From contig RFYP01000003.1 in the NCBI GenBank assembly GCA_009921175.1, positions 1-43,234 of the forward strand: a stretch of 43,234 bases of DNA, read 5' to 3'. Below the pieces are notes generated by a model that was not told where the DNA came from, did no database searches, and saw nothing but the letters and a program-made list of their open reading frames with translations. Position 1 is the first letter of the stretch; each line of letters begins with the position of its first letter. The translations under genes were made by a program, and so were the position numbers. Source of the DNA: Flavobacteriia bacterium. GTDB lineage: Bacteria; Bacteroidota; Bacteroidia; Flavobacteriales; Flavobacteriaceae. Below are positions 5,847 through 17,752 of the stretch, piece after piece.

Positions 5847-5897
5847 ATCTATACCAAGTACTGCTGTGTAATTTTAGCGTGATTTCCCTACGGGATT

Positions 5898-13068: not shown

Positions 13069-14421
13069 TTATTTGGAAGAAACCGTTAATTGGGTTTTTA
13101 TTTCTTTGAGTAAATAAAAACCGGTAATCACCGTAGCGAGGAATTCTCCTATGGGAAAGGCAATCCACACGCCAAACACGCCCAAATAGGGAGGCAGTAT
13201 AAAAATAAGTGGAATCAGGAAAAACCCTTGTCGGGTCAGGGTAAGCAGCAGTGCAGGCAGGGCTTTGCCTATGGCTTGAAAATAGGCAGCTCCGATAAGT
13301 TGAATCCCGATGATCGGAGTAGCGGCAAAGATCCATCGAAGAGCGTTTGGGGTTTGCTGGAGCACTGCAGCATCATTGGTGAAAATTGCAACAAACGCCT
13401 CGGTAAACGTAAAAATTAGTACGCTTATAATAGCAGCGAGGGTCGTGGCGTATAGCAAGGCAGTTTTGATGACTTGTCGAACACGTTGGTAGTTTTTTGC
13501 ACCATAATTATACCCGGCAATGGGGAGAAAACCCTGGGTAATTCCCAAAACGGGAAACAGGGCAAACATCAAGGTTCTACTAATAATGGCATAAACCGCC
13601 ACAGTGGTTTCACCACCAAAATCGTATAAAATAGTATTGACCAAAAGTACAACGATACTCACCACAGCTTGGCGAGCTAGCGTGACCGACCCCAAGGCGC
13701 CAATTTGTCGAACCAACGAAAAATCCAATAAAAAATGTTTGGGAGACAGGTGTAATTCGGAGTTTTTGGACCTAAAAAAATACAAAAGGTATGCTGCACA
13801 AACTCCATAAGACAGGGTTGTGGCCCAGGCCGCACCCGCCATACCCCAATCAAAAACGTAAATAAAAAGCACATCCAAACTCAAGTTACTGATCGAAGGC
13901 AATAGCATGGCATACATCGCATAGCGGGGTTTGCCCTCGGCGCGTACAACGTTGTTGCCCATCATGCAAAAACCGAGAACAGGCACACCATACAACACGA
14001 TGGTATAATAGATTTTTGCAGGCGCATACAAGGCTCCTTTTCCGCCAAAAAGGGGGATCAGACTTTCGATAAACGCCAGTCCCAAAACGACAAAAGACAC
14101 GGTAAAAAAAAGCGTAAGGGTCAACTGATTCCCAAACGTATGCAAGGCCTTTTCTTGGTTTTTATCGCCCAAAGCCCTTGAAATCACTGAGCTACCTCCT
14201 ATTCCAATGGCCATACCAAGTGCACCGATAAAAAAGGAAACTGGCAAAACAACATTAATGGCAGCGATAGCATTTGCACCTATCCATTGACCGACAAAAA
14301 CTGTATCAATAAGAATATTGAGGGACATGACCAAAATCCCAATCGAAGCGGGTACAGCTTGCTGAATCAGTAATTTAGTAATGGGTTGTTGGCCCAATTG
14401 TGCGGCACGGTCTGTCGCCAT
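13069..14421 (-). CDS. MATE family efflux transporter
   Basis: A 450-residue, 12-helix multidrug and toxic compound extrusion transporter coupled to Na+ or H+. Two related six-helix halves are visible, with the family-like N-terminal segment PASIGILVMSLNILIDTVFVG and GITQGFLPIAGYNYGAKNY opening the second half. The track begins at 14463 within hemH. The better start is ATG at 14421 (MATDRAAQLGQQPITKLL), whose first base is shared with the hemH stop (TAATG), a translational-coupling arrangement. The substrate is unknown. Linkage to hemH makes porphyrin or heme-intermediate export an idea, but there is no direct evidence. Confidence 0.92.
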   Translation of the reverse strand: MATDRAAQLGQQPITKLLIQQAVPASIGILVMSLNILIDTVFVGQWIGANAIAAINVVLPVSFFIGALGMAIGIGGSSVISRALGDKNQEKALHTFGNQLTLTLFFTVSFVVLGLAFIESLIPLFGGKGALYAPAKIYYTIVLYGVPVLGFCMMGNNVVRAEGKPRYAMYAMLLPSISNLSLDVLFIYVFDWGMAGAAWATTLSYGVCAAYLLYFFRSKNSELHLSPKHFLLDFSLVRQIGALGSVTLARQAVVSIVVLLVNTILYDFGGETTVAVYAIISRTLMFALFPVLGITQGFLPIAGYNYGAKNYQRVRQVIKTALLYATTLAAIISVLIFTFTEAFVAIFTNDAAVLQQTPNALRWIFAATPIIGIQLIGAAYFQAIGKALPALLLTLTRQGFFLIPLIFILPPYLGVFGVWIAFPIGEFLATVITGFYLLKEIKTQLTVSSK

Positions 14422-15452
14422 TAGGCCGTTTCTTTTTCGGCCAAGGCCCACTGATCGATCCATCGACTTAGGACTTGTACCCAGTCTGATCGGTCATTGA
14501 TACAGGGAATCACGTGCAAGTGTTCTCCGCCTTTTTCTTCAAAATCCTCTACGGCCTCCATTCCTATTTCTTCTAGGGTTTCTAAACAATCCGAGACAAA
14601 AGCGGGGGTAACAATGGCCATTTTTTTAACCCCTGCTTTGGCTTTATTGGCAACCGTTTTATCCGTATAAGGCTGTAGCCAAGGATCTAAGCCTAGTCGA
14701 GACTGAAAAGTGGTGGTGTATTGATCGGGTTTAAGTTCAAGTAATTTGGCCACCTCCTGGGTTGTTTGATAACATTGATGGCGGTAACAGAACTGGTGTG
14801 CTGGCGAAATGGTTTGACAACATAGGCCATCGATTTTACAATGGGACTTGGTGATGTCTGATTTTCGAATGTGGCGTTCGGGCACCCCGTGGTACGAAAA
14901 AATCAAATGCTCCCACTCTACTCCTTGTAAACTTTCTTGGATCGAATTGCTCAAAACACGCACATAGTCGGGATGCTTGTAAAAGGCGGGTAAAATGGTA
15001 AAATCGAGATGCGGAAAATGCTGATTTTTAAGTTGTTCGGCCAGGACCAAAATCGTTTCGGTCGTTGCCATGGCAAATTGAGGATATAAGGGTACAAGTA
15101 AAATTTCGTCAACACCCTGATCGCCCAAGTTTTTAAGTCCTTCATAGAGCGAGGGATTACCATAGCGCATGGCGATGGCCACGGGTACGGCAACCTTTTT
15201 TTGAACCTGCTTTTGCAATCGCTCGGTGAGCACAATCAGGGGTGAACCTTCCTCCCACCAGATCTTACCGTAAGCTTTGGCCGATTTTTTTGGTCGAGTA
15301 TTCAGAATGATTCCTTTGACCAACAGCGTTCGCGCCCATTGAGGGAGGTCGATGACCCGCTCATCCATTAAAAACTCTTCTAAATACACTTTGACATCCT
15401 TGGGTTCCGGGCTGTCCGGTGAACCAAGGTTGATCAATAAAACCCCTTTCAT
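14421..15452 (-). CDS. hemH: Ferrochelatase
   Basis: A 343-residue ferrochelatase that inserts Fe2+ into protoporphyrin IX, the last step of protoheme synthesis. The catalytic histidine is His188 in FSYHGVPERH. The C-terminal CLETLEEIGMEA carries the conserved glutamate pair, and TFQSRLGLDPWLQPYT is a family signature. The N-terminus MKGVLLINLGSPDSPE and length are canonical. It lies 9 nt downstream of the AraC regulator gene and shares one base with the MATE gene, so araC-hemH-MATE form one likely operon. It faces away from the hemA-F operon across the regulator. Confidence 0.96.
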   Translation of the reverse strand: MKGVLLINLGSPDSPEPKDVKVYLEEFLMDERVIDLPQWARTLLVKGIILNTRPKKSAKAYGKIWWEEGSPLIVLTERLQKQVQKKVAVPVAIAMRYGNPSLYEGLKNLGDQGVDEILLVPLYPQFAMATTETILVLAEQLKNQHFPHLDFTILPAFYKHPDYVRVLSNSIQESLQGVEWEHLIFSYHGVPERHIRKSDITKSHCKIDGLCCQTISPAHQFCYRHQCYQTTQEVAKLLELKPDQYTTTFQSRLGLDPWLQPYTDKTVANKAKAGVKKMAIVTPAFVSDCLETLEEIGMEAVEDFEEKGGEHLHVIPCINDRSDWVQVLSRWIDQWALAEKETA

Positions 15453-15461
15453 AGTCTTTTT

Positions 15462-16346
15462 TTACGAAGATACTGACATTAAATATTTTTTGGGGGTAGT
15501 TCCAAACTTCTTTTTAAAAGCGGCAATAAAATGACTGGAAGTACTGTAGCCCAAATGCAGACCCACCTCGTTAACATTGTACTTTTGTGTAGCCAAAAGA
15601 CGTTGGGCTTCATCCATTTTGTGATCCAACAAAAACCCGTAAACGGTCTGCCCATACAGCTGTTTAAACCCCTCTTTGAGTTTTTTGATGTTGATGCCCA
15701 CCTTATGGGACAATTCTTGTAATGTAGGGGGTTCGGCCATGTGTTCCAAAAGTAGTGTTTTGGCTTGGCGAATCCGTCGTACTTGGTCTTCGTTTTCAAG
15801 AAACGGACATTGTTCTAGGTCTGCAGCGGTGGTATCAAAATACAAGCTAAACAACTCATACACTTTGGCCTTAAGGTATAAAGCACGCACACTGTCATCG
15901 ACCTTGCATTGTAATAATTGACTTAAAACTACAGCCGTTGCAGGCGAAAAAACCCGGTCATCGTAAAACTTTTGAGTACTGTTCTCCGGACTTAAAAAAC
16001 TGATTTGGCCAGCGTCATTTGAAAACAAACTGTGGAATTTTTTGATCGAAATTACCACACTAAGCATCCATGTATCCGGAGCCACCACCAAATCAATAGG
16101 CAAAGACTTTTGAGGATTATAGAGCAAAACCACATGATTTTCATAGACCGAAAAGGTATAGGCCCCACCATTGTATTGCAAATCTCCACGGCCTTTTAAA
16201 CAAAAATGAAATTGAATAACCTCCTGATTTACAGCGCGCTGAAAACCTCCTTTTGACTGAGCATCCTGTTGCAGGCAATACAATTCAAACCCAGGTTCGA
16301 GGGCGTATTCCCAAAAAGTTCTTTTAGCGTTGTTTTTTGATTCCAT
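15462..16346 (-). CDS. AraC family transcriptional regulator next to hemA/hemH
   Basis: A 294-residue regulator. The N-terminal 180 residues form an AraC-type sensing domain (cupin-like beta-rich, QFHFCLKGRGDLQYNGGAYTF). The C-terminal 100 residues hold two helix-turn-helix motifs: LQELSHKVGINIKKLKEGFK and VNEVGLHLGYSTSSHFIAAFKKKFGTTPKKYL. Its position between hemH and divergent hemA suggests it controls heme synthesis, perhaps sensing iron, heme or a porphyrin, but the ligand is inferred only. The promoter appears to be TATATTTG on the minus strand at 16407-16414. The resulting leader contains a perfect 23-bp inverted repeat that could be an operator. Confidence 0.92.
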   Translation of the reverse strand: MESKNNAKRTFWEYALEPGFELYCLQQDAQSKGGFQRAVNQEVIQFHFCLKGRGDLQYNGGAYTFSVYENHVVLLYNPQKSLPIDLVVAPDTWMLSVVISIKKFHSLFSNDAGQISFLSPENSTQKFYDDRVFSPATAVVLSQLLQCKVDDSVRALYLKAKVYELFSLYFDTTAADLEQCPFLENEDQVRRIRQAKTLLLEHMAEPPTLQELSHKVGINIKKLKEGFKQLYGQTVYGFLLDHKMDEAQRLLATQKYNVNEVGLHLGYSTSSHFIAAFKKKFGTTPKKYLMSVSS

Positions 16347-16356
16347 AGCACAAGTT

Positions 16357-16379
16357 TTATTTAGAATAAATCTAAATAA
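16357..16379. promoter_or_regulatory. Perfect 9-5-9 inverted repeat, candidate operator
   Basis: TTATTTAGA-ATAAA-TCTAAATAA is a perfect palindrome with 9-bp arms and a 5-bp centre, 10 nt upstream of the AraC-family gene's ATG. It lies downstream of that gene's predicted -7 element, where a bound repressor would block transcription. The TTTAGA/TCTAAA half-sites look like binding sites of dimeric winged-helix metalloregulators (Fur or DtxR type), but this is an impression from shape and not a matrix match. The arms could also form a weak AT-rich RNA hairpin. Confidence 0.6.
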
Positions 16380-16406
16380 TTAATTGGTTTTTAGTAAACC
16401 GAGCCA

Positions 16407-16414
16407 CAAATATA
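16407..16414 (-). promoter_or_regulatory. -7 element of the AraC-family gene
   Basis: On the minus strand the sequence reads TATATTTG, an exact TAnnTTTG match about 60 nt upstream of the AraC-family gene's ATG. No TTG at the preferred -33 spacing is seen. Transcription from here would copy the 23-bp inverted repeat into the leader. Confidence 0.45.
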
Positions 16415-16460
16415 CTACATTTAAGCGCGTTTTATGCTAAAACGACGCGGAATTCCAATT

Positions 16461-16493
16461 TTGATACTTATAGTTCTTTTAGCGTTATTTTTG
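16461..16493 (+). promoter_or_regulatory. hemA operon promoter
   Basis: TTG at 16461-16463, a 22-nt spacer and TATTTTTG at 16486-16493 match both Bacteroidetes promoter boxes. The predicted start site near 16500 gives a leader of about 35 nt before hemA. One TTTAGCGT repeat directly precedes the -7 box and another lies in the leader. Confidence 0.6.
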
Positions 16494-16534
16494 GAAGATA
16501 CCGCCCCGTAATTTAGCGTCGATTTTAGAAGTCT

Positions 16535-17752
16535 ATGAGCCGCAATCACGCGCCCAAAAAATTTTTTGCTTTAGGCATCAGTTACCAAACCGCTGACGCG
16601 CGTACGCGTGGCAATTTTTCGTTGGACACAACCCAAATCGATGAGCTTCTTTTGGAGGCCAAGCAACAAGGATTAAAAAACTTGTTGGTGCTCAATACCT
16701 GTAATCGTACCGAATTGTACGGATGGCATCATTCGGCCCAAGCGCTTAAAAAACTCCTATGTCGGTATTCTACAGAACTTGAATTACAATTTGACAAACT
16801 AGGGCATTACTACGAAGAAGACGCGGCTTACCAGCATATTTTTCGGGTAGGCACTGGCCTGGACAGTCAAATTTTGGGCGACTTTGAAGTCATCGGACAG
16901 CTTAAGAAAAGTTTTTATACCTCCAAAAACCTTGGGATGGCCAACAGCCTTAGCGAGCGATTGGTCAATGCTATCATCCAAGCCAGCAAGCGCATCAAGA
17001 CCGAAACAGAAATTTCTTCCGGAGCCACCTCGGTCGCTTTTGCTTCGGTTCAATACATCTTAAAGAAGGTACCGGACATCGACCACAAAAAAATCTTGTT
17101 GTTTGGTACAGGAAAAATCGGGAGAAACACCTGTGAAAATCTAGTCAAACACACCTCCAATAAACACATCACGCTGATCAACCGAACGGCTTCCAAAGCG
17201 GCAGAAATTGCCGGTAAGTTTCAATTGGACGTTAAGCCTTTGGGCGATTTACCTGCCGAATTACGTGCAGTAGATATTGCCATCATCGCCACCGGAGCTC
17301 CCACACCGACCATCAGCAAAGCAATGATTTTTAATCACAAACCCCTGTTGATACTCGACCTATCGGTTCCCAAAAATGTCGAGGAGGCTGTCGCTGAAAA
17401 AGAGCAGGTGACCTTGGTGCATCTCGATGAATTGTCAAAAATTACCGATGCTACCCTCCAAAAGCGCCAACAATATATTCCTCAAGCCCTAGCGATTATC
17501 GAAGAAATCTCGGCCGAATTCAAAACCTGGCTCGAACACCGTAAGTATGCCCCCTTGCTCAAGGCCATTAAAGACAAATGGAGGCCTGCTCAAGAATCAT
17601 CTTCGGATGCTATGCCTCCCCTGGCGGCAGATGTCAACAAAATTACCGGGCAAATTGCCACCTACCTGAAAGAAAACCCCAAAGATGCTCCGGTGGCCTC
17701 CAAACTGCTCACCCATATCTTTGAACTTGAAATTAATTCCGATGCCCTCTAA
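16535..17752 (+). CDS. hemA: Glutamyl-tRNA reductase
   Basis: A 405-residue NADPH-dependent enzyme reducing glutamyl-tRNA(Glu) to glutamate-1-semialdehyde, the committed step of C5-pathway tetrapyrrole synthesis. The nucleophilic cysteine is Cys56 in LNTCNRTELYGW. LDSQILGDFEVIGQLK matches the family's substrate region, and KKILLFGTGKIGRNTCENL is the Rossmann NADPH-binding loop. A C-terminal helical dimerisation domain follows. It heads the hem operon and overlaps hemC by 11 nt. The partner HemL is not in the window. The start ATG 16535 gives a normal N-terminus (KKFFALGISYQTAD). Confidence 0.96.
   Translation: MSRNHAPKKFFALGISYQTADARTRGNFSLDTTQIDELLLEAKQQGLKNLLVLNTCNRTELYGWHHSAQALKKLLCRYSTELELQFDKLGHYYEEDAAYQHIFRVGTGLDSQILGDFEVIGQLKKSFYTSKNLGMANSLSERLVNAIIQASKRIKTETEISSGATSVAFASVQYILKKVPDIDHKKILLFGTGKIGRNTCENLVKHTSNKHITLINRTASKAAEIAGKFQLDVKPLGDLPAELRAVDIAIIATGAPTPTISKAMIFNHKPLLILDLSVPKNVEEAVAEKEQVTLVHLDELSKITDATLQKRQQYIPQALAIIEEISAEFKTWLEHRKYAPLLKAIKDKWRPAQESSSDAMPPLAADVNKITGQIATYLKENPKDAPVASKLLTHIFELEINSDAL

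Follow-up and report, generated by a model that had tools for sequence, protein, structure and literature searches.

The genome of the Flavobacteriaceae member considered here carries hemA, the glutamyl-tRNA reductase gene that opens a run of heme-synthesis genes, divergently from a gene for an AraC-type regulator at a distance of only about 200 bases, and the question raised by this locus is how the gap and its two neighbours control the synthesis of heme. The window, that is, the whole stretch of DNA analysed, comprises 43,234 nucleotides. In it hemA occupies positions 16535-17752 on the plus strand (open reading frame list and tblastn against relatives), the araC-type gene of 294 amino acids occupies 15462-16346 on the minus strand with its ATG at 16344-16346, and hemH, the ferrochelatase gene, lies directly downstream of araC at 14421-15452 on the minus strand (both from the open reading frame list). 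A literature search gave no relevant paper on a hemA-linked AraC protein and no described heme-synthesis regulator in the Flavobacteriaceae. Taken as a whole, the locus is quite probably explained as a control region devoted to heme synthesis and receiving two inputs, in which the AraC protein would act at its own operators and Fur at a box lying between them.

Probable operators of the AraC protein

An ortholog of araC was found in 70 of the 72 same-family genomes searched, and the divergent araC-hemA arrangement was seen by tblastn in about 66 genera of relatives. The intergenic comparison consists of 148 usable loci, including 80 further named-collection loci. The original prediction had called for conservation of both a palindrome and a repeated element in the gap, and the alignment gave it far above the level of shuffled sequences: 120 of the 148 intergenic regions contain the palindrome core TTTAGAnnnnnTCTAAA with one mismatch or fewer (0.75 expected from shuffling), and 131 contain a 20-nt operator with four mismatches or fewer (0.35 expected). 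As judged from these alignments, the layout of a Fur box with AraC-type operators is kept across the Flavobacteriaceae.

The strings on which the prediction was built are all present in the window where it had placed them. The repeated element, TTTAGCGT, occurs three times in the region, starting at 16323, 16478 and 16512, and elsewhere in the 43-kb window only at 5873 and 36114 on the plus strand and 34714 on the minus strand; copies 1 and 2 belong to a block with 22 of 24 positions identical (16317-16340 and 16472-16495). Copy 1, however, which had been taken as intergenic, lies inside the araC reading frame (15462-16346). Two opposed TAnnTTTG promoters had also been described, and exact matches are found on the minus strand at 16407-16414, for araC, and on the plus strand at 16486-16493.

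The operator of hemA consists of direct-repeat half-sites beside the target promoter, as apparent from the sequence and as expected of an AraC/XylS-type regulator. The downstream half-site (OP), GTTCTTTTAGCGTTATTTTT, which contains copy 2, is located at 16473-16492 on the plus strand and was delimited by the family consensus, and the upstream half-site, TGATACTTATA, is located at 16462-16472 on the same strand, 21 bp before the downstream one. The family form of the upstream half-site is CGAYAYTAAAA, from which the TGATA of the window differs by one base, and a second CG core 21 bp upstream of the OP core was found in 106 of the 148 loci. In 143 of the 148 loci the distance from the start of OP to the hemA -7 box (TAnnTTTG) is 36 nt. 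OP extends across the -33 region, leaving 16 nt between its end and the -7 box, and the consensus is without a separate -33 element. This family spacing points to TAATTTAG at 16509-16516 on the plus strand, with one mismatch, as the hemA -7 box, so that TATTTTTG, which abuts copy 2 at 16486-16493 and had been proposed for this role, is probably not the main one. The -7 box of araC is TATATTTG (16407-16414, minus strand, exact), and CAAAnnTA at position +47 from the palindrome start is its commonest place in the family. An FNR/CRP-like dyad, TGAYAnnTRTCA, was observed in the araC promoter spacer, 58 bp before OP, in 29 of the 148 loci (0.2 expected; intergenic regions within L001-L089 and L125-L204), and is absent in the window.

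The proposal that the AraC protein binds the TTTAGCGT repeats is retained for the tandem operator at copy 2 and must be given up for the other elements in the gap: copy 3 (16512-16519), which runs into the inferred hemA -7 box, lacks conservation, and the supposed inverted copy, ATGCTAAA, is not exact (ACGCTAAA would be) and is matched by nothing in the family consensus, so both were rejected as operators. A search for further copies found the exact 15-base core TTTAGCGTTRTTTTT in the own genome only at the araC-hemA locus, and the exact OP element once per genome, again only at this locus, in all six complete relatives (6/6), where most of the weaker matches fall within coding sequence and none was seen beside a heme gene. 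Since no clear second operator target appeared in these six genomes, the AraC protein seems to serve hemA alone. That the locus carries AraC operators is very likely, and adjacency, uniqueness and conservation suggest the AraC protein itself as their binder.

Copy 1 is part of a single half-site (O2), TTTTAGCGTTGTTTTT, at 16322-16337 on the plus strand, which coincides with araC codons 4-9 and lies about 155-168 bp from OP. The codon result is independent of the motif search, its columns being those of the protein alignment. Codon 6 has C as its third base in 148 loci, where 35.3 would be expected (z=23.4), although the residue itself varies among I, N, V and T, and codons 6-9 account for four of the five columns with the strongest synonymous-site signal in the gene. 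Because of this synonymous-site constraint, an operator within the araC codons can be accepted with high confidence, and it would be bound by the AraC protein; covariation between the O2 and OP cores is weak, with 9 joint deviants. An operator conserved in coding sequence is a clean case of dual-use DNA.

The AraC protein and its candidate ligand

The protein has a cupin-like N-domain, a linker with Cys180-Pro181 and a C-terminal double helix-turn-helix (HTH) of about 100 amino acids, as in the AraC/XylS family. The Pfam domain HTH_18 is matched at 1.3e-19 (70.7 bits against a cut-off of 33.6), the fold matches the AraC DNA-binding domain with a TM of 0.87 by target length, and the matches of the model are AraC, ToxT, Rns and BgaR. 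The pLDDT of the model is 82.6, and linker residues 173-184, which contain Cys180, are of low confidence. His105, Cys180 and Pro181 are invariant in 155 of 155 orthologs, and the Cys-Pro pair and His105 were found in none of 8 paralogs, which is the conservation expected of a CP-type heme sensor; His47 and Cys49 of the N-domain are also well conserved. CP is the classical heme-regulatory motif, and the text of the review describing it makes no mention of AraC (PMC11442138).

Cys180-Pro181 together with His105 may therefore be regarded as a candidate heme-sensing motif: heme, the end product, would bind to the Cys-Pro pair of the flexible linker, perhaps with a second ligand in His105, and its binding would exert feedback on hemA. 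Heme as the ligand is put forward only tentatively. The rival explanation, in which the ligand is a pathway intermediate (ALA or a porphyrin) or a redox signal at Cys180, comes close to an evenly balanced case, as the cupin barrel of an AraC N-domain normally holds a small-molecule ligand, the folds match those of AraC, BgaR, ToxT and Rns, and His47 and Cys49 are well conserved too; the absolute conservation of the Cys-Pro and the His, and their absence in the paralogs, speak against it. The conserved Cys-Pro could alternatively serve redox or metal sensing. The fullest version of the heme reading, namely that an AraC-type protein is a direct heme sensor by Cys-Pro and His105, the first of its family, controlling hemA via a loop to an in-frame operator with Fur on the same nucleoprotein complex, is a rather speculative possibility.

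The palindrome and the probable input of iron

The palindrome TTATTTAGAATAAATCTAAATAA, a perfect 9-5-9 inverted repeat at 16357-16379, is located in the araC leader, 28 bp downstream of the araC -7 box, with a 19-mer core, ATTTAGAATAAATCTAAAT, at 16359-16377, and is found at two mismatches or fewer in 129 of the 148 loci. It is lost or degenerate in 17 of them (e.g., L028, L030, L063, L074, L129 and L132), where the AraC operators remain. A Fur box of Riemerella anatipestifer, ATTTAGAATTATTCTAAAT, is bound by purified Fur in vitro in an electrophoretic mobility shift assay (EMSA) (PMC5609570), and the window palindrome matches it in 17 of 19 positions. Related forms of the box were also found ahead of feoAB in 30 of 30 genera, the own genome included, and, at two mismatches or fewer, upstream of actA, in the alternative complex III operon, in 29 of 30 genera. 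In 29 of the 30 genera the feoAB box lies 11-13 nt after the -7 box and so straddles the start site. The actA box (L265-L294) is usually placed 64 nt before the -7 box (21 loci), which is activator-like and unlike the start-site position at feoAB.

A scan with the exact palindrome gave 1-3 copies per genome and suggested no regulon, and a scan allowing two mismatches was too noisy; relaxing the palindrome to the feo/act form revealed a regulon, the combined pattern giving 33 forward sites in five complete genomes against 7 in the reversed control. These sites adjoin TonB receptors, a DUF4856 protein, an Mrp/NUBPL ATPase, a porin-like protein and what is likely, as read from its sequence in the absence of a Pfam hit, a succinate dehydrogenase subunit. 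DUF4856 lipoprotein-type genes (L363 and L377, the latter with the Pfam hit) bear the Fur box, which suggests an iron-related role for the family. Because of the match to the EMSA-tested box, the sharing with feoAB, actA and TonB receptors, and its persistence in genomes with no detectable DtxR, the palindrome is almost certainly a Fur box, which Fur would be expected to bind in the present organism. The metalloregulator originally assigned to the palindrome is thus most likely of the Fur type, and the idea of two separate regulators holds as well, with a distinct and rigidly placed AraC-type operator at hemA. The palindrome may also resemble the rhizobial Irr box.

Fe-Fur at the palindrome would be a roadblock on araC, and also on hemH where it follows, so that iron shortage would raise the regulator. 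The prediction had placed both genes under the palindrome; the box in the araC leader agrees with this for araC, and for hemH control by the box is probably lineage-specific, since hemH directly follows araC in the window, stays close behind it in some relatives only and is separated from it in many. As to the sign at hemA, the AraC protein would activate hemA from OP, because OP is in a class II position and the consensus has no separate -33 element; an activator is the fairly probable reading. Were the AraC protein a repressor, plentiful iron would let Fe-Fur silence araC and hemA run, and shortage would let AraC shut hemA. Iron-sparing is known in other bacteria, and both this logic and the Fur box just downstream of the araC start would suit a repressor, but OP over the -33 region, with its end 16 nt before the -7 box, is in the usual position of an AraC activator and no separate -33 element is seen, so repression is unlikely. 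With AraC as an activator and araC repressed by Fe-Fur, hemA would be lower in iron-replete cells, opposite to the rhizobial logic, which counts against the activator reading.

Binding of the palindrome by a DtxR-family regulator is highly improbable and was rejected. Several relatives do have DtxR genes close to feoAB, but no match to DtxR (PF01325) was found in the three incomplete genomes of the own genus (G000, G001 and G002) or in the relative G022, which is 99% complete, and the box, which fits the Fur box, is kept at feoAB and actA in G000 and G022. The own-genus genomes and G022 have one Fur-family protein each, and the fur gene is flanked at short distance by a relA/spoT-type gene on one side and purA on the other. 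An RNA hairpin in place of a DNA site, to which the position within the araC leader in most Flavobacteriaceae would lend itself, can be dismissed, as the arms are invariant in related loci with no compensatory pairs, distant lineages place the palindrome beside the hemA operator and away from araC, and the box recurs at the feoAB and actA promoters and matches the EMSA-tested Fur box.

Possible DNA looping and comparison with known systems

The distance from the palindrome to OP is 112-115 nt in 99 of 131 loci (other classes are 102-106, 92 and 47-50), with a standard deviation of 3.5 nt in the main class against 19.7 nt for the hemA leader, and from this fixed spacing Fur may act on hemA too. 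The distance from O2 to OP is mostly 164-168, with others near 155, 146, 134 and 121. Changes of spacing on the tree are often steps of 9-13 bp, with helical phasing suggestive but short of significance at p ~0.07-0.14 when they are counted as independent events, and distant loci with distances of 243-259 bp fit looping poorly. Contact between OP and O2 would loop the DNA and hold down araC, and perhaps hemA; the case for such a loop is evenly divided.

In E. coli, AraC binds tandem half-sites 21 bp apart by the target promoter and a distant single half-site. The present locus shares with araBAD-araC the AraC-family protein, the divergent target, the 21-bp tandem and the distant half-site, but differs in that O2 lies in the araC coding sequence, the target is hemA, a Fur box intervenes and the linker bears Cys-Pro. 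The R. anatipestifer box resembles that of the window in its sequence and in its iron-uptake targets, whereas at the present locus it accompanies the gene for a regulator of heme synthesis, and in relatives also the alternative complex III operon, and both are absent from the published R. anatipestifer target table consulted (PMC5609570). Bradyrhizobium Irr likewise joins an iron/heme input on heme synthesis with a CP motif (PMC11442138), but Irr is one Fur-family protein with both roles, and here Fur and a CP-bearing AraC protein would be separate. In Corynebacterium, HrrSA and ChrSA, as cited in the same review, exert heme-responsive control of hemA; hemA control is common to both, heme being only a candidate here, and those are two-component systems of an unrelated protein family. 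Heme synthesis in the Flavobacteriaceae thereby gains a candidate control circuit open to direct testing, composed of a defined protein with its operators, a Fur box whose targets extend further, and residues that may ligate heme.
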